Source: Candidatus Thorarchaeota archaeon
Lineage (GTDB): Archaea > Asgardarchaeota > Thorarchaeia > Thorarchaeales > Thorarchaeaceae
DNA: 64,000 nucleotides
Direction of reading: 5' to 3'
Assembly (NCBI GenBank): GCA_008080745.1
Contig: SHMX01000001.1
Coordinates: 558,617-622,616, forward strand
The notes below the pieces were generated by a model. The model saw nothing but the letters and a program-made list of their open reading frames with translations, made no database searches and was not told where the DNA came from. Positions 39,621 to 56,877 of the stretch are shown here, piece by piece. The first letter of the stretch is position 1. The number at the start of each line of letters is the position of its first letter. The translations under genes were made by a program, and so were the position numbers.

Positions 39621-39775
39621 TCATAGTTTTGTAGAATCACCAAAAAAGCTGAGTACATAATGATTGAAATGAAACCTATGAAAAAGATTGGCTTCATACA
39701 CTGTTCTACACTTTGAAACAAAGAAATCCATCTGTTCTAAACTTTAGATTGAAGTAAATACCTGAGTACAACAAC

Positions 39776-41671
39776 ATGATTCATATGACACAGAAACCGC
39801 CAGAGATGTCTAAAAAACGATTCAGAAATAAAATCGTCCAACATATATTGATGGCATCGATTCTTGCGATAATCATTAGCTCAACAATTATCGCTTTTGT
39901 GCCTATATCAACAATACCACAGACACAGATCATAGAGGGGGAGCAGGTAGCTGATCAGCAAGACACGATGTCTTTTCTTGAAGATATAGAACAGCCTTTT
40001 GATGGCATGCTATTGAACGCCACACCATTTCCAGGTGATAGAAAATGGGACTTTGAGGCATACTCAATCGGAGGTGTTGCTCAGTATTCATATGCTGACA
40101 GAGAAACAGGTTTGCAGATTGATTATGAAGACACAGAGTTGGTGTTCTCAACAGATGTGAACATTCCACTTCACAATATCACAAGACTGAGTTTTGATGT
40201 CCAAATTGAGGTGTTACAAGGCATCACAAATCTTAGTATGTATGTAGGCATTGTGAGATGGAAAGAACTTCTTAGAGTTCCATTTAATAACACATTCTCG
40301 AATTTGACACGATATGCCTTGTATCAATATTCATCAGTTCCAGAGAGTTATACCTTACAAATAGAGATTCCTGTTTGGATGATTAGGAATGCGACTGATG
40401 ACTGGATGGTCCAAGCCGATTTTAGAGTTAGATTGGACTCGATATACTCTTCGTCCATCATTGTGAAAAGCGCACAAGTATTGGCAGAATACGACATCGA
40501 CCTCTATCCAGTTACTATAGACATGATTACATCCGAGGGAAATAGTCTTTATTCAAACCCCTATTCCCGTGAGCTCGGCCCCACGCCGTATCTAAGTCTG
40601 ACTGATACCACTCATGAAAATTATTCTAGGATATATATCTCAGTTGGAAATGAAACAATATACTTACCTCAGGGAGAATACGAAGGAATCATAGGTTGGC
40701 ATGTATCATTCGACTATTGGGAGGCGAGTGCAACATCATTTGTGGTAGAGAATCAAAAAAGAACAATACTGCAAGCTCCAATTAGTACTCTAAAGTTGCA
40801 AATCGACCTCAGTCCGAGAGTACCCCATCTTCAGATGTCTGTCTTATTTTTCAATGAAAACTCAACTGCAAAGTTCAAGTATGGAGATGGGCCATGGATA
40901 TCATATTCGTACTACCGCTTCTGGAATATGGCAGCACATGAAATAGACTATCTCTATATTCCTGCTATCATGGGGAAATTGATTCTAGGAATTAATGTGA
41001 TGGATCAGATACTGTTCTTCAGTTCAGAAACAGATATTGACATCCAACAGGAGATTTCGGGATCGAACGACTTGATTCTTGACATAGATCTAGCATATTT
41101 CGAATTTTTGGGAATAGCACTCTCACCAGGAGAGACTATAGTCATTACCATTGCGGTTTCAATAATGTTTGCAGCTATCATCATGTTATGGAAAAATACG
41201 GAGGAACAAAAATGGATCTCACATCTAAAGAGCGTAAAATCTATTCCATTTTTATTATTACTGGGCAGTATATTTGTACCTTGGTTCATGGTAAATATAC
41301 AAAGTGGTCCGTTTACTGATGTATATGAAATCAATTATCTAGCTTTTGTGCCTCTAATGCTATTAGTGACATGGAATGAGGGCAGTTTGATATTTCCCAT
41401 TGGGTTCCCACAGAGTTTTGTAAGCATTATTGTGATAGCTCTATTCTGGGTTCCATTTTTGTCAATGTTATATGTAATAAGAGAGGACAATATTTGGCAG
41501 CTACGGATACCACATTTGATAGCCATGCTTGGCCCACTCGCTATGGTAGGATCATTTCTGATTGTAGCGAACCTGTTAGATGTGCCGTTGATTCTACTAC
41601 CGGGTGTATATCTAGCAATTCTTGTTCCTGTATCATGGATAGGAACATATGCATTGAAGAAACACAACTAA
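39776..41671 (+). CDS. Large membrane protein with extracellular domain, possible sensor
   Basis: 631 residues: a membrane helix near 23-48, an extracellular beta-rich region of about 400 residues with several N-glycosylation sequons (NIT, NLS, NYS), then about six closely spaced membrane helices (ETIVITIAVSIMFAAIIMLW onward). I know no family. The winged-helix membrane protein starts 17 bases after the stop, so the two are co-transcribed and could form a sensor-regulator pair. Start choice: ATG 39776, with another in-frame ATG three codons on. Confidence 0.7.
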   Translation: MIHMTQKPPEMSKKRFRNKIVQHILMASILAIIISSTIIAFVPISTIPQTQIIEGEQVADQQDTMSFLEDIEQPFDGMLLNATPFPGDRKWDFEAYSIGGVAQYSYADRETGLQIDYEDTELVFSTDVNIPLHNITRLSFDVQIEVLQGITNLSMYVGIVRWKELLRVPFNNTFSNLTRYALYQYSSVPESYTLQIEIPVWMIRNATDDWMVQADFRVRLDSIYSSSIIVKSAQVLAEYDIDLYPVTIDMITSEGNSLYSNPYSRELGPTPYLSLTDTTHENYSRIYISVGNETIYLPQGEYEGIIGWHVSFDYWEASATSFVVENQKRTILQAPISTLKLQIDLSPRVPHLQMSVLFFNENSTAKFKYGDGPWISYSYYRFWNMAAHEIDYLYIPAIMGKLILGINVMDQILFFSSETDIDIQQEISGSNDLILDIDLAYFEFLGIALSPGETIVITIAVSIMFAAIIMLWKNTEEQKWISHLKSVKSIPFLLLLGSIFVPWFMVNIQSGPFTDVYEINYLAFVPLMLLVTWNEGSLIFPIGFPQSFVSIIVIALFWVPFLSMLYVIREDNIWQLRIPHLIAMLGPLAMVGSFLIVANLLDVPLILLPGVYLAILVPVSWIGTYALKKHN

Positions 41672-41687
41672 TGGTAAGGTGCTAGAG

Positions 41688-42134
41688 ATGACTAAAGATG
41701 ATGAGCTAGATATTTCATTGGTCTTTGAATTGGGTGAAACAACGTGGAAGGTCTTGGTCACCATGCTTAGCATCAAGAAACCCATAGGTCCCAGAGAGCT
41801 AGCTCGTCATCTTAATCTGAGCAGTCCCAGCGTGGCACTCTACCACCTTGACAAGCTCAAAGAACACGGGCTAGTAACAAAGGATGTTCATGGCGAATAT
41901 CAGATAGATCCAAAAGCAGACATAGGATTTCTGGATAATTTCCTATTTCTCAAGCAGAAGATCGTTCCACGGACTTTATTCTATGCTGTATTCTTGACCA
42001 TAGTTCTTGCAATATATGTAACCATTGTCAGATTTGACTATGGCATTCATAATGTGTTTGCCCTCGTTCTAGGTATTTCTGGTTGTGCTTTTCTATGGGC
42101 GGAAGTCATCCGAATTTGGAAAGGGCTTGTTTAA
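41688..42134 (+). CDS. Membrane-tethered winged-helix regulator
   Basis: About 148 residues from ATG 41688, which has AAGGTG six bases upstream; the open frame begins at GTG 41679. Residues about 10-70 form a MarR/ArsR-like wHTH (ELARHLNLSSPSVALYHLDK as recognition part), and two helices follow (RTLFYAVFLTIVLAIYVTIV; VFALVLGISGCAFLW). It is a membrane-bound transcription factor, likely controlled by the large membrane protein upstream. A copy of the GGGAAAT-ATTC-GG motif starts three bases after its stop. Confidence 0.8.
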   Translation: MTKDDELDISLVFELGETTWKVLVTMLSIKKPIGPRELARHLNLSSPSVALYHLDKLKEHGLVTKDVHGEYQIDPKADIGFLDNFLFLKQKIVPRTLFYAVFLTIVLAIYVTIVRFDYGIHNVFALVLGISGCAFLWAEVIRIWKGLV

Positions 42135-42136
42135 TA

Positions 42137-42152
42137 CGGGAAAATATTCCGG
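42137..42152. promoter_or_regulatory. Motif copy A, CGGGAAAATATTCCGG
   Basis: A near-palindromic 16-base site with core GGAA-AATA-TTCC, related to the motif at the promoters at 42255, 43943 and 49916. It lies about 120 bases before the secreted-protein start at 42275, just after a regulator gene. Confidence 0.45.
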
Positions 42153-42240
42153 AAAACAAGATGTACAAGATAGAGACGTAATCCCATAAGCCCCACAATC
42201 AAAACGGCAGATAGAAATCTAATGCGATAGAATTCTCGTA

Positions 42241-42267
42241 ATATTTAATAGTCACCGAACATTTCCC
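42241..42267 (+). promoter_or_regulatory. TATA box and motif copy B before secreted protein
   Basis: ATATTTAATA (42241-42250) fits a TATA box for a transcript starting at about 42272, next to ATG 42275. CCGAACATTTCCC at 42255-42267 is the reverse of GGGAAATGTTCGG, one mismatch from the motif at 43943, and lies between TATA box and start, where binding would block transcription. Confidence 0.55.
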
Positions 42268-42274
42268 ATATATT

Positions 42275-42766
42275 ATGAAATCGTTGAAGGGTAGAACCAT
42301 TATTCTTGGTCTGGTTCTCATAATGGCTGTTAGCCTGTTACCAAGTTCTGTTGTTGCGTATTCCAGCAATAGCTCACTGTTATCAATAACCCATGCCGAT
42401 TATGGTGACTTGGACGATGACGGAGCAGATGATGATGTAATTACAGAGGCCCGAATTGGGTCGCTCACCGGTTTTCCAGAATTCATTATCTGTACAGTGA
42501 CATTTACACTTACATTACCGTCAGGAGCCAATTATACAACTGACGTAGTGATATGTGGGATATATGATGTAGTAGATCTTACAATCGAATGGTACGACCA
42601 TGCAACCGAATCAGGATGGTATAAGATCCACGCAGAGATGGAATCAGTCACTATGTTATGGGAATTCTCAGCTGATGCATATGTTATATTCGACCCACCA
42701 GAAGAGGGTCCACCAGGTACACCCTGGGTAAGAGTCCTTGTAAATAACCAAGTACCCTTCTGGTAA
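42275..42766 (+). CDS. Secreted Asp-rich protein
   Basis: 163 residues. A signal peptide (about 8-28, IILGLVLIMAVSLLPSSVVA) precedes a beta-rich domain with a calcium-loop-like stretch GDLDDDGADDD near residue 50, as seen in dockerin/FG-GAP type loops. Family unknown. It is the first of three secreted proteins sharing the promoter motif. Confidence 0.7.
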   Translation: MKSLKGRTIILGLVLIMAVSLLPSSVVAYSSNSSLLSITHADYGDLDDDGADDDVITEARIGSLTGFPEFIICTVTFTLTLPSGANYTTDVVICGIYDVVDLTIEWYDHATESGWYKIHAEMESVTMLWEFSADAYVIFDPPEEGPPGTPWVRVLVNNQVPFW

Positions 42767-42795
42767 TCATGATACTTGTGGGGGAAACCACATAG

Positions 42796-43914
42796 TTGAG
42801 TAATGGCCTTACGGCCAATCATCTCAGAGTGTTAGTTGCTCTTCAACAAATACCCCTTGGTACGTATGACCAACTCTCCGAGAAAGTAGGCCTAGCAAAA
42901 TCAGTAGTTTATGGATACGTCCAAGAGCTAGCAGAATGGCCTGGAACTGGAGAGTCCTACTTTGTAGTTGCTGCAAACCCACACCTAGAAAATCTAGGAC
43001 TGCAGCTAGTTGATGTACTTGTGGAGGCAGACAGTGAACCTAAGTTAGAAGCAGTCGAAAGGATTTGTCAGAAACACCCATACACGGTATACAGAGCTAG
43101 ATGTTTTGGAGACACTAATGGCATGCTAACCCAGTTCCGTATACCAATTGGAAACACAGGAAAAATAGAAGAACTCTTCGGCAAAGCATCAAAAAGAGGG
43201 GTTTGTGACGATTTCAAAATCTTACCTTTTGTCGATTCAACACCTACGTACACCACAATGGACATAGATCACTGGAACCATGACATAGGTCATTGGGAAT
43301 TCAATTGGGAGAAATGGTTTTCAGAAGAAGCCAAACTTAATCAGCCAACAGAAACTAAGCAGGCCCTGGGCTCTGAGAAGTCTTGGCTATCTCGAGAGGA
43401 CATCATCATTATTCGAGAATTGACCAAGAACGCACGACAGAAAAACAAAGACATCATGGCGACTTTGAAAAAAGCAGGAATTGAAATGACTTCTCAGGCG
43501 TTTAGCAGAAAATTAGCAAGAATCAAAAAACGATGTATCAATGGATATCGTGTTCAGATAAACCCGTTTGCATTTGATTCTTATAATCCAGTTCTTATCT
43601 GGGGTGAAGGAAAAATCGAAGATATTCAGTCACTTCAAGCGAGAATTTCAAAGAATCCAATACCATTTACATCAACCTTCAAAACAGACGATGGAAATCT
43701 GTTCTGGTACCTCCATCTCCCCGCAACACATCTTTCTGATCTCCTCTTTCATCTCCGTCCCATTCTACACGACCTTAGATTTAATCACATAGACTATGTA
43801 CGAAGTAGCACTTACTATCTCTGGCCGGAAACATTCAATGAGAAAGAACACGACTGGAAAAATGATTCCAATTTCATGATTGACAGTGTCCTTGACCAGA
43901 TAAGTGATCGATAA
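42796..43914 (+). CDS. Two-domain Lrp-like transcription regulator
   Basis: 372 residues, start TTG. It looks like a tandem duplication of Lrp/AsnC-type units: wHTH 1 near 8-45 (VLVALQQIPLGTYDQLSEKV), an RAM-like ligand domain (about 65-145), wHTH 2 near 195-245 (IRELTKNARQKNKDIMATLK), and a second RAM-like domain (about 250-340). It lies between two copies of the shared motif (42255 and 43943) and next to the genes they precede, so it is the leading candidate for the factor that binds them. This link is inferred from position only. Confidence 0.75.
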   Translation: MSNGLTANHLRVLVALQQIPLGTYDQLSEKVGLAKSVVYGYVQELAEWPGTGESYFVVAANPHLENLGLQLVDVLVEADSEPKLEAVERICQKHPYTVYRARCFGDTNGMLTQFRIPIGNTGKIEELFGKASKRGVCDDFKILPFVDSTPTYTTMDIDHWNHDIGHWEFNWEKWFSEEAKLNQPTETKQALGSEKSWLSREDIIIIRELTKNARQKNKDIMATLKKAGIEMTSQAFSRKLARIKKRCINGYRVQINPFAFDSYNPVLIWGEGKIEDIQSLQARISKNPIPFTSTFKTDDGNLFWYLHLPATHLSDLLFHLRPILHDLRFNHIDYVRSSTYYLWPETFNEKEHDWKNDSNFMIDSVLDQISDR

Positions 43915-43942
43915 GGGTATGTAGCAGCCCGCAACCCGTTAT

Positions 43943-43969
43943 GGGAAATATTCGGTAAATATATATAAT
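43943..43969 (+). promoter_or_regulatory. Motif copy C plus TATA box before subtilase
   Basis: GGGAAATATTCGG (43943-43955) directly abuts TAAATATATATAAT (43956-43969), the best TATA box, for a transcript starting near 43995 and ATG 44029. A weaker mirror copy, AGAATATATCC, follows at 43974-43984. The identical 13-mer precedes the alpha/beta hydrolase gene on the minus strand. Confidence 0.65.
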
Positions 43970-44028
43970 ATGAAGAATATATCCGCAATATCTCTAGTCT
44001 TTATGGACAATAGAGAGAGGTAAACAAA

Positions 44029-46305
44029 ATGAGAATTGAACGGAAAATGCTGGCGGCATTATTATTCATTGCCACCTTATTAAGTGTGAGCGGGCAATTC
44101 TATGGGGCACCCATTCATACACAAGTAATTGTATATGAGCCTGTAGAACAGCCATACTCACCGTCATGGGATTCTGATCTAAACAGAATCCACGACGATC
44201 TTGATAAGAAACTCAGAGATATGAGTTTTGGTGATTCGGTAAACGTGATAGCCAAAGGCGCATCTATTGAACTACTAGAAGCTGCTGCTGCGGATTATAA
44301 TTGTGAGGTCAGTTCACGATATCCAGCTATCAACGCTATAGCTCTTCAAATCGATAAACATCTAATCGATGATTTCAGCAAGGACGTTAGAATCCATCAT
44401 CTTGAGGATGCAGATCTTGAGATGAAGACGTTTCTTGACAGCTCACTAGATGTTACGGAAATACCCGAGGCGTATGCAAATTATCCCTACCATGGTGAAG
44501 GAATGGTCATTGCCATTGTAGATACTGGTATTGACAACAGCCATATGGACCTAGATGATGACGATCCATATAATGATCATAAAGTCATAGCATTTAGGGA
44601 CGTTATCAATGGTAACGACGACTTTTCATTACCCATTGATGCTTATGATGATCAAGGACATGGTACCCATTGTGCCAGCATCGCTGCTGGAACCGGTGAG
44701 GCAAGTAGCGGGCAATACAGAGGTGTTGCATATGCATCACAGCTGGTCGGCGTAAAAGTTCTGAGTGGAGAGGGCAGCGGAACAGAACAGCAAATCCTTG
44801 ATGGGATGCAATGGGTCATAGACAATAAGGATGTCTATGGTATAGACATAGTCTCAATGAGTCTAGGATCAAACAGTGCAACTCCATCTGATGGAACTGA
44901 TTCACTCTGTCAAATGGCTGATGCAATGATGGATGCGGGATTACTTCTATTTGTAGCGGCTGGTAATCACGGATATCCAGAGTGGTTGTATGGATACAAT
45001 ACTATTGGATCTCCAGCAGCTTCAGAAAAGGCAGTAACAATCGGTTCCGTTAATGATGATGGAAGCTGGTCTTCATTTAGCAACGAGGGGCCAACAGGTG
45101 ATGACCGCATTAAGCCAGATGTGATGGCAGTTGGAGCTGATGTCACAGCCGCTAAAGCTGATTCGACCAATCAGTATGTGGCATATTCTGGAACCAGTAT
45201 GGCAACACCAACCGCAGCTGGTATTGGAGCACTTCTGCGCCAAGCAAATCCCAGTCTCAACCCATCTCAATTGAAAGATGTATTGCAGGATACTGCAATG
45301 GATATGGGAGATCCTGGAAAGGACAATACCTACGGTTCGGGAATCATTCAGACCAAGCAGGCTCTTGATGTGGTGACAGGAGGAATAGACAATCCACCAA
45401 CAGTCAGCATCGAGGCACCACTTGACCAGAGTACGGTTTCAGATACCTACCGGATTCTTGTTGCAGCTAGTGACGATAACTCTGTTACATCCGTTGAGCT
45501 TGCAATAGATGGCACTTGGATTGATATTACCGCTAATTATGATGGTACCCATTATTATTATGACTGGGATACAACCACATATTCCGAAGGACTTCACACT
45601 ATATCAGCCAGGGCGACCGATGACGCAAGTCAGACTGCTGAGACCACCATTGAAGTAACGGTCTCAAACGAGGGGCCCATTGACAATCCACCCACCTGTG
45701 TAATAGCTGATCCCACTGAGGGAGAAACAATCACAGGTACTCATAGAATTCTTGTCTCAGCAAGTGATGATAATGGCATCAATGCTATCGAGGTAAGAAT
45801 CGATGGGGGAAGTTGGATTGATATAACTGGTAACTTTGACGGTGCATACTATTACTATGACTTTGATTCAACAACTGTTGATGATGGAACACATGGAATA
45901 GAGGCAAGAGCCATTGATACCATCTCCCAGGCCACTTCTGATACGATTAGTGTCACTGTCGAAAATGAGATTGTTCAAAATGCAATGTTTATTGCCGACA
46001 TAGAGGTCAGTAGTTGGAGCTTTTGGATCTTCACTTATTGTGAAGTCGAGGTCACCATAGTGGCAGGTACACCCTCAGACTATGTGGGTCTATCTGGTGC
46101 AACGGTGAACTTGGAAACAACATCTCCACTGGGAAGTACCAAATCCTATTCTGACACTACCGACTCATCAGGTGTAGCCTACTTTGACATCGGTTGGATA
46201 TCTTCAGGTACGTGGGTGTTCAAGGTAATTGATGTCACACATGCCGATTACACATATGATCCATCTCTCAACATAAACGGTGACACCGTAGAAGTGGATC
46301 TCTGA
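44029..46305 (+). CDS. Secreted subtilisin-like serine protease with Ig domains
   Basis: 758 residues: signal peptide (1-22), an I9-like propeptide (about 50-130), an S8 peptidase domain with catalytic Asp165 (AIVDTGID), His211 (GHGTHCA) and Ser390 (SGTSMATP), then two Big_7-like Ig domains (about 455-545 and 555-645, each with PPTV/PPTC start and YDWD/YDFD blocks) and a C-terminal beta domain. All active-site residues are intact. There is no C-terminal anchor. It should act outside the cell on proteins; co-regulation with other secreted genes suggests nutrient scavenging or surface processing. Confidence 0.94.
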   Translation: MRIERKMLAALLFIATLLSVSGQFYGAPIHTQVIVYEPVEQPYSPSWDSDLNRIHDDLDKKLRDMSFGDSVNVIAKGASIELLEAAAADYNCEVSSRYPAINAIALQIDKHLIDDFSKDVRIHHLEDADLEMKTFLDSSLDVTEIPEAYANYPYHGEGMVIAIVDTGIDNSHMDLDDDDPYNDHKVIAFRDVINGNDDFSLPIDAYDDQGHGTHCASIAAGTGEASSGQYRGVAYASQLVGVKVLSGEGSGTEQQILDGMQWVIDNKDVYGIDIVSMSLGSNSATPSDGTDSLCQMADAMMDAGLLLFVAAGNHGYPEWLYGYNTIGSPAASEKAVTIGSVNDDGSWSSFSNEGPTGDDRIKPDVMAVGADVTAAKADSTNQYVAYSGTSMATPTAAGIGALLRQANPSLNPSQLKDVLQDTAMDMGDPGKDNTYGSGIIQTKQALDVVTGGIDNPPTVSIEAPLDQSTVSDTYRILVAASDDNSVTSVELAIDGTWIDITANYDGTHYYYDWDTTTYSEGLHTISARATDDASQTAETTIEVTVSNEGPIDNPPTCVIADPTEGETITGTHRILVSASDDNGINAIEVRIDGGSWIDITGNFDGAYYYYDFDSTTVDDGTHGIEARAIDTISQATSDTISVTVENEIVQNAMFIADIEVSSWSFWIFTYCEVEVTIVAGTPSDYVGLSGATVNLETTSPLGSTKSYSDTTDSSGVAYFDIGWISSGTWVFKVIDVTHADYTYDPSLNINGDTVEVDL

Positions 46306-46327
46306 AATCTGTAGAATATCTTCTCCC

Positions 46328-46357
46328 GGAATGAAGGTTCGTCCTTCATTCCTTTTT
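46328..46357 (+). terminator. Terminator hairpin after subtilase
   Basis: GGAATGAAGG / CCTTCATTCC, a perfect 10-bp stem around TTCGT, followed by TTTTTCTTTT. It begins 23 bases after the stop codon. Confidence 0.75.
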
Positions 46358-46432
46358 CTTTTCAAACTGGATTCGTTTCCTTGACTGAAAAAGAAGAGTA
46401 AGCATTACTTTTTAACAGGCTTCGATAAATGG

Positions 46433-47647
46433 ATGTCCGAGGGACGATATTTGGTTTGGTCGATTCCAAAGAGGAATACGCTCTTTTTGATTTTGATAAT
46501 GGTCAGCCTTTGTTCGTCCATAACCAGTATTGAAGAATACACCTTAGCAGATCAAAACATAGAAACCCGAGCTGTCTGGCTAAACCATTATGCCTTCAAT
46601 TCTGATGCAAAACGGAATGAAACATTAGAAAAGATTCGTTCAGCAAACCTGAACACGGTATTAATGATATCTCCTCCGATAGGAGATAACAACGGTTGGT
46701 CCGAGATAGAGGATTTCTCAGAAATGCTAGAAGAGTTGGTAGAATATGACATAAGTGTACATGCTTGGATTGCCAACCTATACAGAGTAAAAGGACAAAG
46801 AGCCGATTTTAGTAACACCACGGAACAGTCAGAGCAAATCAATTGGGCATTGGAAATTCTGCGCACATATCCAAAACTCGATGGAGTTCATTTTGATTAC
46901 ATACGAACAGAGAATTTGGATTACGTTAATGCAACAAAAATGAACGCAATCAGTTCCGTGATTGAACACACCAAAGAGAGAATCAGAGAAGAGTTTCCCG
47001 AAAAATACCTTACCACCGCCGGATGGTCTCTATCAGGAGAGATAAGGACACCACAAGACGAGCTTCCCGAATGGTATCTCGAATGGTTCAATCAGTATGA
47101 AGACGATCCAGTAAACAGATGGAGTAAAGCCGCTTACAGCCACAATGGACATCCCACATGTTTTGGTGTTCAGCAAGATCCTGTAATTTGGCTATCTCAA
47201 GGCGAATTGGATTTTCACATCTCGATGGAGTATTGTTATGAAACAGACTGGTGGACAGGTGAAGTGGATATCTGGAATACCTTCCCCTACGAGGTGGTGG
47301 AACATATCTTCATGGGACTTGGTTGGTATTCAGGAGTTTGGGAGGAGGAGAGCTACACAGAAGAAATGGTTGCAACAGAGATTGTGAATAAGATTCAGTA
47401 CGGCAGATCTCATAAAATCACAGGATTCAGTATATTCGAACTTGGTGAGCCTTACAACAATGATAGTATTCTAATCTCGAAACTGGCAGGAGATGAAAAT
47501 GATCCATTCTGGAACAAGGCAATATCCGGATTCAAAGCTGAATCTCATAGTCCTATTGACCTTTTCCAAGAGAATATCTTCCCAATAGCTCTGATAGGAA
47601 TCATATCACTAGTTGTTGTATATGCAATCAAAAGGAAGAGAAAATAA
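46433..47647 (+). CDS. Membrane-anchored glycoside-hydrolase-like TIM-barrel protein
   Basis: 404 residues. An N-terminal helix (about 15-33) and a C-terminal helix (about 381-399, NIFPIALIGIISLVVVYAI) with KRKRK flank an extracellular domain resembling the GHL10 (DUF187) glycoside-hydrolase-like family: ETRAVWLNH, SANLNTVLMI, YDISVHAWI and the DGVHFDYIR block, whose Asp is at the predicted active site. It would cleave or bind a glycan at the cell surface. The start ATG 46433 fits a TTTTTAAC element about 20-25 bases upstream, i.e. leaderless. Confidence 0.8.
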   Translation: MSEGRYLVWSIPKRNTLFLILIMVSLCSSITSIEEYTLADQNIETRAVWLNHYAFNSDAKRNETLEKIRSANLNTVLMISPPIGDNNGWSEIEDFSEMLEELVEYDISVHAWIANLYRVKGQRADFSNTTEQSEQINWALEILRTYPKLDGVHFDYIRTENLDYVNATKMNAISSVIEHTKERIREEFPEKYLTTAGWSLSGEIRTPQDELPEWYLEWFNQYEDDPVNRWSKAAYSHNGHPTCFGVQQDPVIWLSQGELDFHISMEYCYETDWWTGEVDIWNTFPYEVVEHIFMGLGWYSGVWEEESYTEEMVATEIVNKIQYGRSHKITGFSIFELGEPYNNDSILISKLAGDENDPFWNKAISGFKAESHSPIDLFQENIFPIALIGIISLVVVYAIKRKRK

Positions 47648-47650
47648 GAA

Positions 47651-47680
47651 AAAAGGAACCTCAGAGGGGTTCCTTTTTTT
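47651..47680. terminator. Bidirectional terminator between convergent genes
   Basis: AAAAGGAACC / GGTTCCTTTT, 10-bp stem around TCAGAGGG, with T runs on both strands. It lies between the stops of the glycosidase-like and hydrolase genes and can serve both. Confidence 0.75.
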
Positions 47681-47685
47681 ACATG

Positions 47686-49863
47686 TTATTCTATCTGTTT
47701 TCGAATTATATCAAAGATAGAGAAATCCAATAGGATGTTAGAACCAGTGGTTTGGTATGTCAGAGTCACCGTAAGTTCATAGGATCCCGATCCCCAATAA
47801 CTATGGACCATGATATACATGACCCCAGTAGAGGGGTTTTCAATGGTGATATCCTCGCCACCCCATGTACTTGCCTTGAAGTCATAGTTAGAAGTAGTTG
47901 GCTCGGAACCCATTTTACCATATATGTCAAAATCTGTGAACCATCCAGAAGATAGTTGAACTCGCATTGACACACAGTCTTGATCGATTACTATGAACCA
48001 AACTTCACTTGATCCACTGGAAAGGGAACCACCAACCGGAACTCCATTCTCCAGTTCATTCTCTACAGCATTTAGCACTTGCACCGTGATTTCAGCTGAC
48101 CCAACATTTCCTGCTGCATCTGCTGCCTCACAAGTAATTATGTGGTCTCCATCGGTATAACTGGTAGTATCCCAGGTAAAGGAGGAATCAGTAGAAACCT
48201 CAATACCATCAATCAATATGCGATAACTAGTCACACCTACATCATCAGTTGCAGAAAAATCGATGTTTGCATTTCCAGACACGGTTGCTCCATCAACAGG
48301 GGATAGAATTTCTACCTCTGGAGGAGTAGTATCAATATATGAATTATCAACTACAACAGAGATTGACGAACTTCCAAGATTGCCACTAGTATCAATAGCC
48401 TCACAAAGAATAGTATGATATCCATCTTCGTAAGTTTCCGTGTCCCACAGGTAGTGGGTTTCGGCAGATACTGAAATACCATCAATCTTGATACAGTATG
48501 AGTCAACACCCTTGTCATCTTCTGCTGAGAAGATTATTTCAACGACATCCTTCACAGTTGCACCATCTGTTGGTTGACTAATTGTTACTACAGGCAGGGA
48601 ATCATCTATATTATCGACAGTAACAGATATCTCTTCAGAACCCTGGTTGCCCAATGTATCGATTGCTTCGCACCGTATGAAGTGGGTACCATCGGACCAT
48701 CCAGTTGAGTCCCAGTGGTATGTGTTCGATTCTGATACAAGAACATCATCAATGTAGGTCTTTATTTCTGAAACACCGCTTTCATCTTGAGCTGAAAAGC
48801 TAATAGTAACGATGCCATCCACAATAGAACCGTCAGTGGGGGATTCAATTGTTATTGTTGGAGGAGTCTGATCGATTCCTTCATGAGTACGAGCCTCAAC
48901 GATTCCTGCATTTACATCAGCATCGAGCTCTTCACCAAAAAGATACTTATGAAATGATACATCACCAACTAAGAAATATTGAAGATGAGCTATAGCATAT
49001 TTACAAGCAAGTCTATGGTGTTCCTCAAGACTTATTGTAGGACTATTATCACCCATTCCGCTATTTTCATCCATGTATTGATAGTGATTTGCACCAACTA
49101 TACCAATAAAGATCTTTGACACATCTGAGAGTGTACCATATACATAATCAGGATCGTTTCTAGCAACGTCATCCAATGTTCCTTTTTGAATCATTCCAGG
49201 AACATCAATTCCAGCAACCTCATCATACATATCAGGATCAGGCTGTCCAGGAAACATATTCGTCTTGTTTGCAGGAGCCATCGCAATAAATGTGCTGATT
49301 CGAGAATCACGATTTGTTGCCAACAATATAGCCCGAGCTCCCATTGAGTAGCCTACTGCAGCAAACTTTGATACATCGAACATTCCTGCGAGGAAATAGG
49401 AAGTATCAGCGTTCCTATTAATCACCCAATCAATACAATCAGAAATATCCTGTGCATTTCTTTCATGATTAGTTGAAAACAACCCATCACTAAAGTCAAT
49501 GACAGCAACTATGTAACCCCAGCTTGCCTGCCATTCTGCATACCACTCATATTGAGATGGATCAGAATTGAATCCCCTCCCAAATATGACGACAGGATAT
49601 GGAGCGTTATCCTGTGAAGGATTTGTATCAGTACCACCTTCTGTTGCAGGATAGTATAATTCAACGTCTATGGTGTACCCAGATTCATCCACGAAACTTC
49701 CTGTTGTGAACCCTACTTGATAGGCACCAGGAGAATCAGGAGAAGTTGTAGAGAGTCTACTAAATCTGACAGCAACACTTTCTGTGGAAGTCTGAAAGCC
49801 AGAATACAGGACTCCACTAGTAATGATGGTCAGAAGTAGTAAGATAGCAAATGTCTTTTTCAT
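47686..49863 (-). CDS. Secreted alpha/beta hydrolase with Ig and PPC domains
   Basis: 725 residues: signal peptide (1-22), an alpha/beta hydrolase of the dienelactone/PET-hydrolase-like type (about 40-325; VVIFGRGFNSDPSQYEWYAE, nucleophile elbow GYSMGAR, acid region and a late ANHYQYM histidine), three Big_7-like Ig domains (about 340-625, each PP/LPxVxIxxPxDG... to GNxGS), and a C-terminal PPC-like beta domain (about 630-715). The Ig domains resemble those of the subtilase in this window. It should be a secreted lipase/esterase. Its promoter carries the shared motif. ATG 49863 has GGAG seven bases upstream. Confidence 0.92.
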   Translation of the reverse strand: MKKTFAILLLLTIITSGVLYSGFQTSTESVAVRFSRLSTTSPDSPGAYQVGFTTGSFVDESGYTIDVELYYPATEGGTDTNPSQDNAPYPVVIFGRGFNSDPSQYEWYAEWQASWGYIVAVIDFSDGLFSTNHERNAQDISDCIDWVINRNADTSYFLAGMFDVSKFAAVGYSMGARAILLATNRDSRISTFIAMAPANKTNMFPGQPDPDMYDEVAGIDVPGMIQKGTLDDVARNDPDYVYGTLSDVSKIFIGIVGANHYQYMDENSGMGDNSPTISLEEHHRLACKYAIAHLQYFLVGDVSFHKYLFGEELDADVNAGIVEARTHEGIDQTPPTITIESPTDGSIVDGIVTISFSAQDESGVSEIKTYIDDVLVSESNTYHWDSTGWSDGTHFIRCEAIDTLGNQGSEEISVTVDNIDDSLPVVTISQPTDGATVKDVVEIIFSAEDDKGVDSYCIKIDGISVSAETHYLWDTETYEDGYHTILCEAIDTSGNLGSSSISVVVDNSYIDTTPPEVEILSPVDGATVSGNANIDFSATDDVGVTSYRILIDGIEVSTDSSFTWDTTSYTDGDHIITCEAADAAGNVGSAEITVQVLNAVENELENGVPVGGSLSSGSSEVWFIVIDQDCVSMRVQLSSGWFTDFDIYGKMGSEPTTSNYDFKASTWGGEDITIENPSTGVMYIMVHSYWGSGSYELTVTLTYQTTGSNILLDFSIFDIIRKQIE

Positions 49864-49885
49864 TTTGCAGTCTCCATTGTGGGTA

Positions 49886-49928
49886 GGGAAATATTCTTTT
49901 AATTATATATATCTGCCGAATATTTCCC
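49886..49928 (-). promoter_or_regulatory. Promoter of hydrolase: two motif copies around TATA box
   Basis: On the minus strand GGGAAATATTCGG (49928-49916) is followed by a TATATATAAT box (about 49910-49900) and then by an inverted copy GAATATTTCCC (49896-49886) near the expected transcript start. The first copy is identical to that before the subtilase, with the same order motif-TATA. Confidence 0.65.
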
Positions 49929-50061
49929 TTATTTGCAATAACAGATTCATTCGGAAATCAAACTAGCATAAATGAAAATTCGAAATTGTGATTCAGCGGA
50001 AGAGTGCTAATATAGCAAAGTCATAATACAGACGACACATTATTAGAATATGGTGTACTAA

Positions 50062-50427: not shown

Positions 50428-53400
50428 ATGCGATGGCGTCGCTTGACCCCTGTTCTAGCCCTGATGTTTCTATTAGTTGGTTCAACCTTATCAGGCTATC
50501 CAGCGATAGATGATGAGCAAGAGAATCAATCTGAACCGAATAGGGCGGAGAGTTCAGTACCGGACAACAGAAATGAAGGGGTCAACCCAAAGAGGATATT
50601 AACAGAGGGTGGTTCAAAGACAGGTGTTCTAGAACCATTATTAGTGGAAACCATAGGTTATTACTCAACGGGAACTATCAGCACGATTACTGCACCGGGT
50701 TTTAATGAAACCTTCGGGCTCCCAATTGATACAGATAACAACTGGAAAGCAAGTCTAACCGAAATCAGTTTGTGGAATCTTGAACGACTCTATGCGATTA
50801 ATGGAACGTTTGATGATGGAATTCCAGGATTCAACCAAAATCCCAATGGGTCAGTATCATATTATCCATATGGCTGGGATGCGTATAGCAATAACACAGA
50901 CCCAGATAGCGAACAGATTCAAACGGCTGGATATGATACAACTACACCATCATATATCAAATTGGAAAACCAAGGAAAGAAAGACGGACCGTCAGGAAGG
51001 AAATTCGACCATTTTGCGGGGACATGGGTAAATTGGATACAGACCGTTAGCAACACACCATTGATTCAAAATTTCATACTAAATTTTGATTACATTTACA
51101 CATCTGGTCCGCTACATAGATCAGGCGGTGTATCTCTTGATGGTAATTGTTCACTAAAAATCTATGTGAACAATACGGAGGCATGGAGCCAGACCCTGAC
51201 TACACTTGACTCTCGAGGAACTTGGTATGAAAGTGGCGCGATTAATATCAGCCTTTCCACAGTAGGAAACTTCGATTTTAAAATCGTATTAGAGATTGAT
51301 AAAAACTTCAATGACCTAAATGCAGAGAATGATTATGATAATGATGGAATCGATGATGGGATAGCAAATGCTGCTTACATTACAGTTAACGTAGACAACG
51401 TCCATCTTATTGGAGAAATTCCTCCAACGCCAGAAAGTGTTGGGCTTCAATTTGAGGCGAATACTAATTCCACTAATATAGAAGGGTCATCAGGAATAGG
51501 AAACGCAACAATACAATCGGAAAGTTACTGGACAGATTCACCAGTTAACATCACATTATCATCCAATGTCAGCGTATCATACGATTATGAATCTAGACTA
51601 CTAAACCACAGATTTACAAATTCATCGTGGACTACAGATAATTCAAAGCAAGGTATTGCCTATTCTATAGAACCCAATTCCAGCTCAAATAATGAATTAT
51701 ACTTCTACCTTGGTTCAACAAGCACCTATGAAGACCAAGAGATATTTTTGTATTATCCAAAGGATTGGGATAATGCCACGATATATGACCCATTTCTTAA
51801 TGATGTTACTTCACAGTGTACAATTACAAGTGGAGAGATTACGATTCCCACATCACTATTCAGTAGGTTAGGTTGGTGGGAAATTACAATAGACTCACCC
51901 AATTATGCTGCAAATGCAACAGTTCAAAAATATGACAGCTCACTAGGACAATGGGAAAATAGTTCTACGTTCAGAAGCGGAAACGAAACCAGAGCAACGA
52001 TAGAGATTAGGCATAACACAGACCAACCCATTTTACAACATCCAGTTAATGTTTCACTCATAATGCCAAATGGAACGGTCTGGGCTGATGATTCCACTAC
52101 TAATGATATAGGATACACGGTAAACACAAGCTCATGGACATTGGATGGACTAAACACAACAGCAGGTCAATGGTTCTATGATTACATTTGGAGTAATGGA
52201 ACTGAAGTAGCGTATGGAACTACACACTTAGAGTTGTACCATGCATCAACTTTGACACCAATCAATTCCCTTATTGAAACAGACCATGGGTTAGTTGTAA
52301 CTAACTTCATTCAGTTTGTGGACGCAGATAATGGTCAATATTTGATGAGTGATGCAGCCACAATCAAAGGTAATTGGTCAGGAAGCTTTGTCAACTTCGA
52401 ACCAAATCTACTAAGAAATTGGTGGGAAGGAAGCTTTGATACCTCACTTGCGTCTAACGGTCAATTCACGGTAGTAGTAAATGCCTCACAACCATATTAT
52501 GACTCTGTCAGTTGTCAATTCGTTATCGAGTCAATATATCCAACTTTGTTTACACTGACCAATGTAGGATCTGACCCTGTTGAAACTGAAGTGTTTATGG
52601 ATGAATCAATAGATTTGACCTACACTTTTGAAAATGGAACCGGAATTGTCGGTGCAGATATTCAGATGAGCTACTCGGGACCATCAGGAGGACTAAACCA
52701 AGGAACAACAAATGATCATGGAGATGGAAACTATACAGTTACTATTACCACTCTTCAAACAGGGACCTATACAGTCACTCTGACCGGAGTTAAAGACTAC
52801 TACGAAACAACTCAAAAATCATTCACTCTTCTTGTGGGTAAGATAGATACTGACTTGACAAGTATGAATGGAACCTCAGATATACAAGAAGTATTCCAGA
52901 GTTACAATCTCACAGTATTTTACGAGAACTCAACAGGAGATGGTCTGGGAGAATCTACTGTTCAAATAACTTCGATGTCGCCAAGCTCAGGAGTGTCCTA
53001 TGGTGCTTTTGTAGATGATACAAATGGCTATTATTCAATCGAACTGACTCCAATGCAGGCTGAAACATACACATTCACTATACAAGCTAACCTATCTAAT
53101 CATGAAACACAGACAACAACCTTTGTCTTAGCGGTCACACAAGTTCAGACTTCACTTACTGTAAACTTTTCGTCCGTAAGTATGGGTCTTACAGACACAC
53201 TATTTGTTCAGGCATCCTATGTAGATGTCTACTCAAATGGACTTGAATCTGCAACAATCTCAGTTATAGATCAACCCGCAGCAATTTCAGTAGATATCCA
53301 AGAGGGAGTGAATGGTAACTACTCGATTTCAATTCAATCATCACTGGTTGGCACATATATTCTAAGATTCTCAGCAAATCGAACTAATTACGAAACGAGT

Positions 53401-56400
53401 TATGCTTCATTTTCACTGACGGTTAACCCAATTGGAACCAATTTCCAAAGTGTTAACGGAACTTCTGGGATAGTGGAGATTCTTGATGAGTATAGGCTAG
53501 TTGTCAGATATACGAACAGTACGGGATATGGTTTGGATGGAGCAAATATCCAAATTACAGCTGTAACCCCAACGACGGGGCTTGCAAATACATCATTTTC
53601 ATATCTCTATGATGGGTACTATTACATTTTATTGACACCTGAAAATAAGAATACATTCACCATCGAAATCAGAGCAGAACGTCTGAATCATGCTACCAGA
53701 ATTCTAACTTTTACTCTTAGTGGTTCAGAAATCCCCACAACACTTACAGCTAATATAACAAGTGCAACACTACCTGTTTATGATTCAATAGAAGTACAGG
53801 TATCATTTGTAGATAAATATTCAAATGGTATAGAAGGAGCAACAATTAGCATAATAAATCAACCAGTAAATGTTAGTGTGACCATTCAAGAGGTATCCGA
53901 TGGAAACTATACTCTCACCTTGAGCGCTAATCTTCAAGGAACGTATCTCATAAAGGTGGGAGCCAATCGGTCAAATTACGATGATGGAATTACCTCATTC
54001 TCACTGGTATTTGAACCAAAGGCATCGTCACTTCTTCGGGTTAATGGAACATCAGGTATAATGCAAGTCAATCAGTCGTATAGATTAGTCATTCAATATC
54101 TAAATGGTACTGGATCTGGACTGGAAAATGCAACAACAACCATAGTTGAAATTTCACCATCCATAGGATTATCATATGGTGCTTTTAGTGAGGAGGCAGA
54201 AGGGTATTATTCGATATATCTATCCCCACAAAACACTGAAACATTCACCATTGTGATTAGAGCAAATATTACAAATCATGTCACCCAAACAACTACTTTC
54301 ACCTTGACCGGATCGGAGATTCCCACATCTTTTGTATTCAACATAACCAGCGCCACAATCGCTATTTCTGACGTTCTGGATGTCCAAGCTTCTTTCGAAG
54401 ACTTCAATGGTAACGGATTAGATGGGGCCACATTGAATCTTGTTGATTCATATTCTGGATTAGATATCGGTATCACGGAAGTAAATGATGGAAATTATAC
54501 CATCACTGTGATTGCTAACGAGTCTGGAAGTTACTTGATAACTATAGCTGCTAGTGTCCCGAACTACCAGAGTCAAGTGAAATCATTTTCTGTTATTGTA
54601 GAGTCCATTGGAACAAAAATACAAATCCTGAATGGTTCTTCTGCAATGATACAATATGGAGAAAATTATTCTGTTGTGATTCAATACACTAACAATACAG
54701 GGTATGGTCTTGATGATGCAAATATTACTGTTCTAAGTATTAATCCAGAGGGAGGTATGAGTGTTGATGATGCAATACCTTTGGGAGAGGGATGTTTCCA
54801 GGTTGTCCTGAAACCAACCCTAACTGCCACCTACTCGATCCTCTTTCAAGCAAATCGAACAAATCACGTCACAAGAACCATAACATTCACATTGACTGTG
54901 AGCGACATCCCATCCATTCTTACTGTAAACACTGGAAGTAAAACAATTGCTTTGGATCAGACTTACACATTACAACTAATTTTCACTGATGAGGATATAA
55001 TGCCTCTTGACTCTGCCACGATTATTGTATTAGACCCACCCAATAGTCTCGAGTTCTCTGATGTGATTTCATTAGGCTCGGGAAAATATAACATCACAAT
55101 AACACCAAGTGTAATTGGAGCATATACTCTTGCATTTCGGGCCGTTCAATCAAATTATGAGAATGCAACAGTTGGATTCAGCCTTATAATAATTGAAATC
55201 CCAACAGAGCTTTCATTCATGGGAGAATCATCCGCTTCGATTAGATTCAAAGATTCCTATGAGATAGTTATTCAATATATAAGAACAGACTTGGTAGAAA
55301 ATATCACAGAGGCTCAAATCAACTTTTACACAACCGACTCTGAAGGGCTAAATATTACAATCTCTGAGCTGGACGGACTATATTATGTGAGAATTACAGC
55401 TTCATCTACGGGAACATGGACCCTGACTGTATCTGCATCCAGAAACAATTATCAGTCAAAATCGAAACAGTTCATACTAGAAGTTCAAAATATAGAAACA
55501 GAAACAATTCCCAATTATGACTTGGGACAAGTAGTCTATGGACGAGTCTATGAAATAGTAGCTGAATATATTTTCTCAAATAACGAGAGTCATATTATCA
55601 ATGCAAATTCAATTGTATTAGGCGACTCTATAGAATGGTTCGAAATCGTCAATTCGGAGAATGGTAGTTATATCATCAAACTGAACCCCAATGCGTTAGG
55701 AAGATATCAGACAACAATTAGGTTGGAAAAAGAGGGATTTGAATCTCAAAGATTTCTGATTGACTACACAGTGGTTCAAGTCCCAATAGATGTTGAAGTC
55801 CTCTCATCGATGAGTGTTATGGAGGGAATGGACTTTGAGGTGAGAATAAGACTTTTTGAGAGTGACACCGGGAACCCAATAAGTGAAGCGGATGTCACTT
55901 GTGGAATCTCTCTAAATGGTAATGAGCCATCAAACGAAATCGAGATGACAGAGATAGAAGCTGGAATTTATGTTGCGACTATTACCATGCCAATCGCATA
56001 TGGTGAAGAAACCTACACATTGAGAATATTTGTGGATAAGGAATATCATACTTTGGAGGACACCTATTTTGAAACTAACCTTATACCCAGGTATAATGAT
56101 AGTGCACGATTAACAGCAGCGGTTGTAGGCTGGTCGCCAATAATAGCTTTATTGATTGGCGGCCCATTGTTTCTTATAGTAGGATATCGAATCTATGACA
56201 AGCGAAAACGGACTAGAATTCTTAGAAATCAAGCCGTTAAACGTCAGTTCGATGATTTACATAACCTGATTGGAGTTCTAGTTCTTCATAGGTCTAGCGG
56301 ATTGCCGGTCTACTCAAAATTCCTTCGTGGAGGCTTTGATGAAGCCATGATATCTGCATTCATCACAGCTGTAACACAATTCAGGTTGGAGGTTGAACAG

Positions 56401-56877
56401 GAAAGCGAGATACCTGATGATGCACTAATCCCAGTGTCTGATATTATCAGAGTGATCTCAACAGAAACGCTAATCTGTGCATTCATCACGGTACGAAGTC
56501 CTTCAATGTTCCATAGGGAGAAAATGATTGAATTTGGAGAAACAGTAGGAAATCAGTTTGATGAGATATTCAGACTGACTCCAGCAGAGGTTCTTGATGG
56601 AGATACACAAGATAGATTCGATGCCCTTTTTGATGAGATACTTGACGGAGCACTGCTGAAGAAATATAGACTTGATGATGATAAAGCAATTCCAAGAGAT
56701 ATGAGATGCCTAGAATTGGGCGCAGATGCCATGGAAAAGGGAGAGCTCGATCTTGATGAGTTGGCCAAGAAGATGGCAATGTGCGGACTTGAAGAGGGGA
56801 GGGTGTATTATCTAATCATGGAAGCTATAAAGAAAGACCTCATAAAACCTGTTGAAGGCTCTGCAGACACATACTAA
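50428..56877 (+). CDS. 2149-residue surface protein with Ig-like repeats and cytoplasmic longin-like domain
   Basis: A signal peptide (about 6-24) leads into an extracellular part of about 1870 residues: a jelly-roll-like N-terminal region (80-330), further beta domains (350-700), then about twelve Ig-like repeats of about 100 residues in alternating types (about 705-1880), rich in sequons. One membrane helix (about 1899-1921, GWSPIIALLIGGPLFLIVGY) is followed by a basic stop (RIYDKRKRTR) and a cytoplasmic tail of about 220 residues. Tail residues about 1940-2050 (NLIGVLVLHRSSGLPVYSKF onward) look like a longin/roadblock fold, and a helical end follows. Longin domains bind small GTPases, so this protein may join the surface to internal GTPase machinery. 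Confidence 0.88.
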   Translation: MRWRRLTPVLALMFLLVGSTLSGYPAIDDEQENQSEPNRAESSVPDNRNEGVNPKRILTEGGSKTGVLEPLLVETIGYYSTGTISTITAPGFNETFGLPIDTDNNWKASLTEISLWNLERLYAINGTFDDGIPGFNQNPNGSVSYYPYGWDAYSNNTDPDSEQIQTAGYDTTTPSYIKLENQGKKDGPSGRKFDHFAGTWVNWIQTVSNTPLIQNFILNFDYIYTSGPLHRSGGVSLDGNCSLKIYVNNTEAWSQTLTTLDSRGTWYESGAINISLSTVGNFDFKIVLEIDKNFNDLNAENDYDNDGIDDGIANAAYITVNVDNVHLIGEIPPTPESVGLQFEANTNSTNIEGSSGIGNATIQSESYWTDSPVNITLSSNVSVSYDYESRLLNHRFTNSSWTTDNSKQGIAYSIEPNSSSNNELYFYLGSTSTYEDQEIFLYYPKDWDNATIYDPFLNDVTSQCTITSGEITIPTSLFSRLGWWEITIDSPNYAANATVQKYDSSLGQWENSSTFRSGNETRATIEIRHNTDQPILQHPVNVSLIMPNGTVWADDSTTNDIGYTVNTSSWTLDGLNTTAGQWFYDYIWSNGTEVAYGTTHLELYHASTLTPINSLIETDHGLVVTNFIQFVDADNGQYLMSDAATIKGNWSGSFVNFEPNLLRNWWEGSFDTSLASNGQFTVVVNASQPYYDSVSCQFVIESIYPTLFTLTNVGSDPVETEVFMDESIDLTYTFENGTGIVGADIQMSYSGPSGGLNQGTTNDHGDGNYTVTITTLQTGTYTVTLTGVKDYYETTQKSFTLLVGKIDTDLTSMNGTSDIQEVFQSYNLTVFYENSTGDGLGESTVQITSMSPSSGVSYGAFVDDTNGYYSIELTPMQAETYTFTIQANLSNHETQTTTFVLAVTQVQTSLTVNFSSVSMGLTDTLFVQASYVDVYSNGLESATISVIDQPAAISVDIQEGVNGNYSISIQSSLVGTYILRFSANRTNYETSYASFSLTVNPIGTNFQSVNGTSGIVEILDEYRLVVRYTNSTGYGLDGANIQITAVTPTTGLANTSFSYLYDGYYYILLTPENKNTFTIEIRAERLNHATRILTFTLSGSEIPTTLTANITSATLPVYDSIEVQVSFVDKYSNGIEGATISIINQPVNVSVTIQEVSDGNYTLTLSANLQGTYLIKVGANRSNYDDGITSFSLVFEPKASSLLRVNGTSGIMQVNQSYRLVIQYLNGTGSGLENATTTIVEISPSIGLSYGAFSEEAEGYYSIYLSPQNTETFTIVIRANITNHVTQTTTFTLTGSEIPTSFVFNITSATIAISDVLDVQASFEDFNGNGLDGATLNLVDSYSGLDIGITEVNDGNYTITVIANESGSYLITIAASVPNYQSQVKSFSVIVESIGTKIQILNGSSAMIQYGENYSVVIQYTNNTGYGLDDANITVLSINPEGGMSVDDAIPLGEGCFQVVLKPTLTATYSILFQANRTNHVTRTITFTLTVSDIPSILTVNTGSKTIALDQTYTLQLIFTDEDIMPLDSATIIVLDPPNSLEFSDVISLGSGKYNITITPSVIGAYTLAFRAVQSNYENATVGFSLIIIEIPTELSFMGESSASIRFKDSYEIVIQYIRTDLVENITEAQINFYTTDSEGLNITISELDGLYYVRITASSTGTWTLTVSASRNNYQSKSKQFILEVQNIETETIPNYDLGQVVYGRVYEIVAEYIFSNNESHIINANSIVLGDSIEWFEIVNSENGSYIIKLNPNALGRYQTTIRLEKEGFESQRFLIDYTVVQVPIDVEVLSSMSVMEGMDFEVRIRLFESDTGNPISEADVTCGISLNGNEPSNEIEMTEIEAGIYVATITMPIAYGEETYTLRIFVDKEYHTLEDTYFETNLIPRYNDSARLTAAVVGWSPIIALLIGGPLFLIVGYRIYDKRKRTRILRNQAVKRQFDDLHNLIGVLVLHRSSGLPVYSKFLRGGFDEAMISAFITAVTQFRLEVEQESEIPDDALIPVSDIIRVISTETLICAFITVRSPSMFHREKMIEFGETVGNQFDEIFRLTPAEVLDGDTQDRFDALFDEILDGALLKKYRLDDDKAIPRDMRCLELGADAMEKGELDLDELAKKMAMCGLEEGRVYYLIMEAIKKDLIKPVEGSADTY
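52540..56070 (+). repeat. About twelve ~100-residue Ig-like repeats (protein level)
   Basis: Repeats with N-G-T-S-x-I-x-x-V-x-x-x-Y-x-L-V-I-Q-Y, then N-x-T-G-x-G-L-x-x-A-x-I, then G-x-Y-x-I-x-L-x-P and a final A-N-x-T-N-H/Y. Two subtypes alternate, as if the unit of duplication was a pair of about 200 residues. The DNA is diverged, so the array is not recent. Confidence 0.7.

Follow-up and report, generated by a model that had tools for sequence, protein, structure and literature searches.

In a 64,000-nucleotide stretch of DNA from Candidatus Thorarchaeota archaeon, the 13-bp motif GGGAAATATTCGG supplies one arm of a 43-bp inverted repeat (13-17-13 bp) whose arms flank the TATA box and whose dyad lies on it. 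We analyzed the whole stretch (the window, G000:C1:558617-622616, where G000 is the 3.16-Mb source genome and other G-numbers denote the genomes of relatives). The motif marks three promoters of a local accessory module that is linked to a regulator, not a genome-wide secretion programme. These promoters serve an exported subtilase, an exported alpha/beta hydrolase-like protein, and an operon that encodes a small secreted protein, sec163, together with a fused double Lrp-like protein, LrpL, which is quite probably a local autoregulator that binds the two inverted arms on either side of the TATA box.

An inverted repeat built around the TATA box

The arms are 13 bp long, semi-palindromic (GGGAA-NNN-TTCGG), asymmetric and paired, and their centers lie 30 bp apart, about three helical turns, which places both on one face of the DNA. 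In the subtilase promoter, an exact upstream arm (43943..43955, plus strand; GGGAAATATTCGG) is followed by a 17-bp spacer that holds the TATA box (43956..43972, plus strand; TAAATATATATAATATG) and by a weaker downstream inverted arm (43973..43985, plus strand; AAGAATATATCCG), a degenerate second copy that an earlier note on this DNA had missed and that keeps exactly the 17-bp spacing of the hydrolase promoter. The latter, on the minus strand, carries an exact upstream arm (49916..49928; GGGAAATATTCGG), a 17-bp spacer with the TATA box (49899..49915; CAGATATATATAATTAA, with TATATATA at the dyad) and a downstream inverted arm (49886..49898; AAGAATATTTCCC) that is complementary to the upstream one at 11/13 positions, and this is indeed the second inverted copy across the TATA box that had been described there. 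In the sec163-LrpL operon the arm (GGGAAATGTTCGG on the minus strand, 42255..42267) had been reported as a one-mismatch inverted copy overlapping the start of the secreted protein; the mismatch and the orientation hold, but there is no overlap, as the arm sits between a TATA-like element recognized from sequence (42241..42250, plus strand; TTTAAAA is aligned in G005) and the ATG at 42275. An upstream counterpart (42225..42237, plus strand; CGATAGAATTCTC) preserves the 43-bp span and is weak and degenerate, with ATTC alone kept and 5/13 positions complementary. All of the copies listed in the earlier note, at 43943-43955 (plus), 49916-49928 (minus), 42255-42267 (minus), 49886-49898 and the near-palindrome at 42138-42152, are present.

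Across gaps of 0-70 bp in the hydrolase promoter and four subtilase promoters, arm complementarity reaches 44/65 at gap 17, with the next gap at 26 and a mean of 16 (z 7.6, a figure that overstates independence because 4/5 of the promoters are homologous), and the non-homologous hydrolase promoter by itself gives 11 at gap 17 versus 6 for the next best. A two-arm scan of the 64-kb window places the hydrolase (24), subtilase (22) and sec163 (17.5) promoters on top, each with a span of exactly 43 bp, and the runner-up scores 17.0, so that the sec163 upstream arm is marginal. When the 43-bp repeat is sought in the whole genome with up to 3 mismatches, the best matches are the hydrolase and subtilase promoters (0 and 2 mismatches), and three further matches have 3 mismatches each, both of the two examined falling in open reading frames (ORFs).

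Single arms are rare as well. The whole genome holds 2 exact copies of GGGAAATATTCGG, the two upstream arms, where ~0.09 would be expected by chance (P ~0.004), and only 4 matches with at most one mismatch, 3 of which are the promoters inside 8 kb, whereas the fourth lies outside the cluster within an ORF for a FEN1/XPG-like protein. With the rate set to the observed genome-wide density, this clustering has P ~2e-4. At up to 2 mismatches the window contains 7 matches versus 1.29 expected, a count reached in 0/100 shuffles.

The shared cis-element of the earlier note is therefore real, and is common to the promoters of three exported-protein transcription units. The secreted-protein regulon that had been built on it does not hold up: genome scans put the motif in no promoter beyond the three, it is missing before the exported neighbors at 46433-47647 (404 aa) and 50428-56877 (2149 aa), both with signal-like N termini, and it is not enriched genome-wide before exported-protein genes, the lone extra match at one mismatch being the one inside the FEN1/XPG-like ORF. 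The further claim that all controlled genes are exported is right for the three units, each of which includes an exported protein, and wrong for LrpL, a non-exported product of the sec163 operon.

Conservation of architecture among relatives

The earlier note had staked the motif on keeping its place in orthologous promoters, and that place is kept, so the motif survives. G005, which belongs to another genus, retains sec163 (59%), LrpL (65%) and the subtilase (68%), the last now inverted and divergent. Its sec163 promoter has CCGAACTTTTCCC at the same position between TATA and ATG, identical at 12/13 positions versus 12/40 in the upstream flank, and its subtilase promoter has the motif directly upstream of TATA, identical at 10/13 versus 14/60 in the upstream flank.

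The place of the exact upstream subtilase arm is occupied by CGGAAGAATTCGG in G005, CGGAAATTTC in G038/G039 and GGGAGATTTC in G037; read as upstream/downstream pairs, the arms are CGGAAGAATTCGG/TCGAATGCACCCG in G005, CGGAAATTTCAGG/TTTCATTTTTCCG in G038 (G039 is nearly identical) and GGGAGATTTCTAG/TTTACATTTTCCC in G037, and the total span is 43 bp in all of these orthologous promoters. Subtilase and sec163 promoters also resemble each other within a genome. In G037, whose locus was read across contigs C55 and C29, which overlap at their ends, the identical 13-mer TTTACATTTTCCC lies just 3' of TATA in both, and in G038 and G039 both have the word CGGAAATT upstream of TATA. Position and architecture are conserved across the family, not the exact 13-mer, which in other genera takes drifted forms. 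We also rejected a family-wide conservation of the unaltered 13-mer: the single matches in G020, G024 and G039 are at about chance level, and none is at a promoter.

A candidate regulator that tracks the motif

Two genes at the locus encode plausible DNA-binding proteins. One is a membrane-anchored ArsR/Lrs14-like winged-helix protein (41679-42134), which adjoins the locus, has a DNA-binding domain and is directly followed by the near-palindromic variant at 42138-42152. That it binds the motif is nevertheless very unlikely, as it has a 92% identical ortholog in the same gene order in G015, which lacks the motif and every gene that carries it, whereas G005 keeps both the motif and the LrpL ortholog and has just a 40% winged-helix relative elsewhere in its genome; we rejected this candidate on its presence and absence across G015 and G005. 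The same distribution shows that the motif follows LrpL, and the two-domain Lrp-like protein, already suggested by the earlier note, emerges as the best candidate regulator.

LrpL (42796..43914, plus strand) is a 372-aa protein with the predicted order wHTH-RAM-wHTH-RAM (wHTH, winged helix-turn-helix), which differs from the typical ~15-kDa single wHTH-RAM dimer in carrying two units in tandem. Its TTG start is identical in the G005 ortholog, and its AlphaFold2 model has a predicted local distance difference test (pLDDT) score of 89.9. Foldseek returns the fused NirDL first (4ch7, E 3.1e-10), followed by many single regulators of the Lrp, or feast/famine regulatory protein (FFRP), family that match over one half; the fold matches Lrp/FFRP structures over each half, and no Pfam RAM model (AsnC_trans_reg) is found at E 0.01. 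HTH_24 scores 22.2 in LrpL, above the gathering score of 21.9, and is detected in 15/17 homologs, with HTH_AsnC-type families in 14/17, while the NirdL-like HTH domain (PF22451) occurs in 1/17 and not in LrpL, a distribution that favors a regulator. Its named relatives belong to Thorarchaeota and, more distantly, to metagenome-assembled genomes of Heimdallarchaeota.

The first gene of the LrpL operon, sec163 (42275..42766, plus strand), encodes a 163-aa exported beta-sandwich protein with a signal-peptide-like N terminus, and the LrpL gene starts ~30 bp after it. Its AlphaFold2 model is all-beta after the signal helix (pLDDT 84.9), structural matches are weak (the best is the C-terminal domain of Wzt), and no Pfam family covers it.

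An accessory module with a probable switch of its own

Comparison with G015, the nearest relative and a member of the same genus, delimits the module. Window segments 39697-42135, 46531-47466 and 50063 onwards follow directly on one another there, in collinear order, without sec163-LrpL-subtilase and without the hydrolase, and the 13-mer is absent from the G015 genome. Two interleaved accessory segments, 42136-46430 and 47650-50060, are missing from G015:C25 (L131), where their flanking genes abut. Since G015 has every backbone gene and lacks both the motif and the genes that bear it, the motif belongs to an accessory module that consists of the secreted beta-sandwich protein, the fused double-Lrp regulator and the subtilase, plus a hydrolase; the difference may reflect gain in G000 or loss in G015. 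No tRNA was found when a tRNA-associated integration site was looked for.

The subtilase (44029..46305, plus strand; Peptidase_S8, E 2.7e-59) is exported and carries immunoglobulin (Ig)-like domains, and its orthologs adjoin sec163-LrpL in G005, G036, G038, G039 and, over two overlapping contigs, G037. The hydrolase (47686..49863, minus strand), a predicted target gene, encodes an exported PETase/alpha-beta hydrolase-like protein, again with Ig-like domains, and has no homologs at E<=1e-25 among the other 227 genomes searched. A gene for which this search gave no homologs and which yet carries the strongest putative operator suggests an accessory gene recruited into the switch. The 404-aa protein between the two segments combines its signal-like N terminus with a possible C-terminal membrane anchor, is conserved in a relative and has no Pfam match. 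A more distant subtilase is also encoded close to a distant member of the LrpL family on G010:C73 (L074), the two being separated by a gene for a secreted protein, and the association of subtilase and double Lrp may thus be older, or may have arisen repeatedly.

Could the copies simply be functionless remains of mobile-element ends? Compared with G015 the genes do form an accessory insertion, and the near-palindromic variant (GGGAAAATATTCCGG, 42138-42152, plus strand), far upstream of the promoter, lies beside the synteny break, starting 3 bp beyond position 42135, where G015 homology ends; this variant may be a remote operator or a junction relic. However, the copies keep a constant distance to TATA boxes and do not mark the ends of the module, and they have persisted through three different arrangements of the genes in G005, G037, G038 and G039, a conservation in orthologous promoters that refutes relic status and leaves such an origin barely credible.

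Paralogous regulators and their promoters

Across the family, a sec163-like gene almost always precedes the gene for an LrpL paralog. In Heimdallarchaeota (L086, L088, L090), a sec163-like secreted protein with ESGWY and FDPP motifs is encoded directly upstream of the double-Lrp gene. Paralog promoters often have TATA-straddling repeats of other sequence, such as GGGAAAATGCAA...TTGCAATTTCC in G015 C46, GTAGTAATGTAAA...TTTACTTTACTCC in G014 and AGATAAAAGCAAA...TTTACTAATATCT in G015 C151. In a test that left the dyad free and drew on 269 control promoters, a repeat of at least 9/13 was found in 18/35 paralog promoters versus 62/247 control promoters of the same loci (Mann-Whitney P 5e-4, spans 42-44), a comparison in which some controls are true targets and the promoters are related, not independent; spans 38-51 also score high, and spans 31-33 do not. 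A version anchored on an automatically chosen TATA box is weak (p<0.05 in 8/35 promoters), as the choice often falls on the wrong TATA box, and no general pattern emerged when 5-3-5 palindromes were sought in all sec163 promoters.

The arms are more alike within a regulator clade than between clades of the regulator tree (permutation P 1e-4), and one genome can hold two clades. Clade A comprises the window and G005, clade B has GGGAAAATGYAA-like arms, and clade C has AT-rich arms that mostly end in GTAAA. These data support the view that the arm follows the regulator clade and not the genome. They also bear on the idea that the arms are an unusual core-promoter element, an extended TFB-recognition element (BRE) plus initiator region, read by basal factors. 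The arms do abut TATA and overlap the BRE position, but only three promoters with arms were found in the genome, the sec163 arm is inverted and displaced, and arm sequence differs by regulator clade within one genome, so that we judge this idea highly improbable.

Several individual loci deserve mention. A second LrpL paralog pair, L046 (G000:C5) and L049/L082 (G015:C151), has its own repeat with ATTAGTAAA arms, and ~4 kb away (L046:11630, L082:8790) the promoter of a small-GTPase-like gene has a similar TATA-straddling repeat, which may amount to a second local switch. In an outlier among the controls, L096:6967 (G011), the two arms of an inverted repeat, GGTACTACTTTAT...AGAAAGTAGTACC (12/13), flank a TATA-like region; the gene that follows encodes 295 aa and is close to a clade B LrpL.

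We tentatively consider a broader scheme, somewhat less likely true than false, in which Asgard archaea possess an expanded family of regulators with the double-Lrp fusion. Each would be encoded downstream of a gene for a secreted beta-sandwich protein and have a private operator, with two inverted, asymmetric arms enclosing TATA. The fusion would let one chain read an asymmetric site, the arms would have diverged with the clade, and the secreted partner may act as a signal or sensor.

A proposed mechanism

The arms, their fixed spacing, their conservation and their co-inheritance with LrpL were computed, and to these we add by inference the binding of LrpL, the assignment of one chain to each arm and the sign of regulation. 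A single LrpL chain would act as an internal pseudo-dimer on one asymmetric 13-bp arm, its two dissimilar winged helices reading the GGGAA half and the TTCGG half, and two such chains would face each other with the TATA box enclosed between them. In this way LrpL would govern its own operon through the one strong arm between TATA and ATG, by negative autoregulation, the subtilase through a strong upstream and a weaker downstream arm, and the hydrolase through two strong arms, and the accessory module would travel with its own regulator.

Repression could operate by exclusion of TBP/TFB or RNA polymerase, and be lifted by a ligand of the RAM domains. We lean towards this sign, as arms on both sides, 30 bp apart and with their dyad on TATA, would most simply enclose the box. 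Might LrpL instead act mainly as an activator, the arm directly upstream of TATA recruiting TBP, as in Ptr2, LysM and Ss-LrpB, with the downstream arm a brake or mere symmetry? The upstream arm is the best-kept one in the subtilase promoters, where activation from it is conceivable, and the site used by archaeal Lrp activators lies a few bp upstream of the BRE (PMC2995911). The strong arm of the sec163 operon, however, lies downstream of TATA, in the position of LrpA-type repression, and the hydrolase promoter has both arms; a mainly activating LrpL thus seems unlikely, though worth serious consideration.

Some observations weigh against two-arm binding by LrpL. The sec163 promoters show one clear arm and only a degenerate second, and in G037 the left arm of this promoter is off the standard orientation. 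Among paralog promoters the repeat is only moderately enriched and neighboring spans score alike, and the repeats used for the clade comparison were chosen by score and by eye, which makes that comparison supportive, not conclusive. In LrpL itself, HTH1 has a net charge of 0 and departs from the family consensus, whereas HTH2 is strongly basic (+9), so that the two-half reading of an arm may be wrong.

Relationship to known systems

The closest known parallels are the archaeal Lrp/AsnC (FFRP) autoregulators P. furiosus LrpA, P. horikoshii FL11, S. solfataricus Ss-LrpB and M. jannaschii Ptr2 (PMC2995911). They have the wHTH-RAM fold that is predicted for LrpL, and their 13-bp semi-palindromic sites, which border TATA/BRE and number more than one in a promoter, resemble the candidate sites at its locus; autoregulation, putative for LrpL, is a further parallel. 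In P. furiosus LrpA, a site bordering TATA downstream blocks RNA polymerase, in Ptr2, LysM and Ss-LrpB a site a few bp upstream of the BRE activates through TBP, and in the FL11 co-crystal a dimer sits on a 13-bp palindrome (PMC2995911). A fused pair of unlike wHTH domains on an asymmetric 13-bp arm may be the natural counterpart of that dimer on its palindrome. LrpL differs from these autoregulators in having two Lrp units in one chain and in being paired with a secreted beta-sandwich protein, and its putative operator differs in its asymmetric arms, inverted around TATA, and its fixed 17-bp gap.

NirDL, a fused siroheme decarboxylase, is an enzyme, and its HTHs are not known to be used for DNA. 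It resembles LrpL in its two tandem Lrp-like units and is the best full-length Foldseek match (PDB 4ch7, 4czc; TM-score 0.60 by target length). By contrast, LrpL is only 14% identical to it, its gene lies behind an operator-like repeat, most of its homologs have DNA-binding HTH families, and the neighboring genes that were examined encode an exported protein and a subtilase and include no tetrapyrrole gene. Archaeal Lrs14/ArsR-like membrane-anchored winged-helix regulators are represented by the adjoining gene at 41679-42134, whose presence is independent of the motif.

Our literature search found no worked-out regulon for Thorarchaeota. What the locus offers is a candidate regulator and an operator that are both defined, the latter with exact spacing, along with three presumed target promoters and naturally occurring variants from other genera. 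Each of these can be tested in reconstituted archaeal transcription without culture. If a fused Lrp chain is truly linked to an operator built around the TATA box, it would provide a simple route for local repressors to diversify their specificity, in the archaeal group closest to eukaryotes. A conserved local operator together with its probable regulator is thus probably a new variant of archaeal Lrp regulation, here attached to a module of exported hydrolases.

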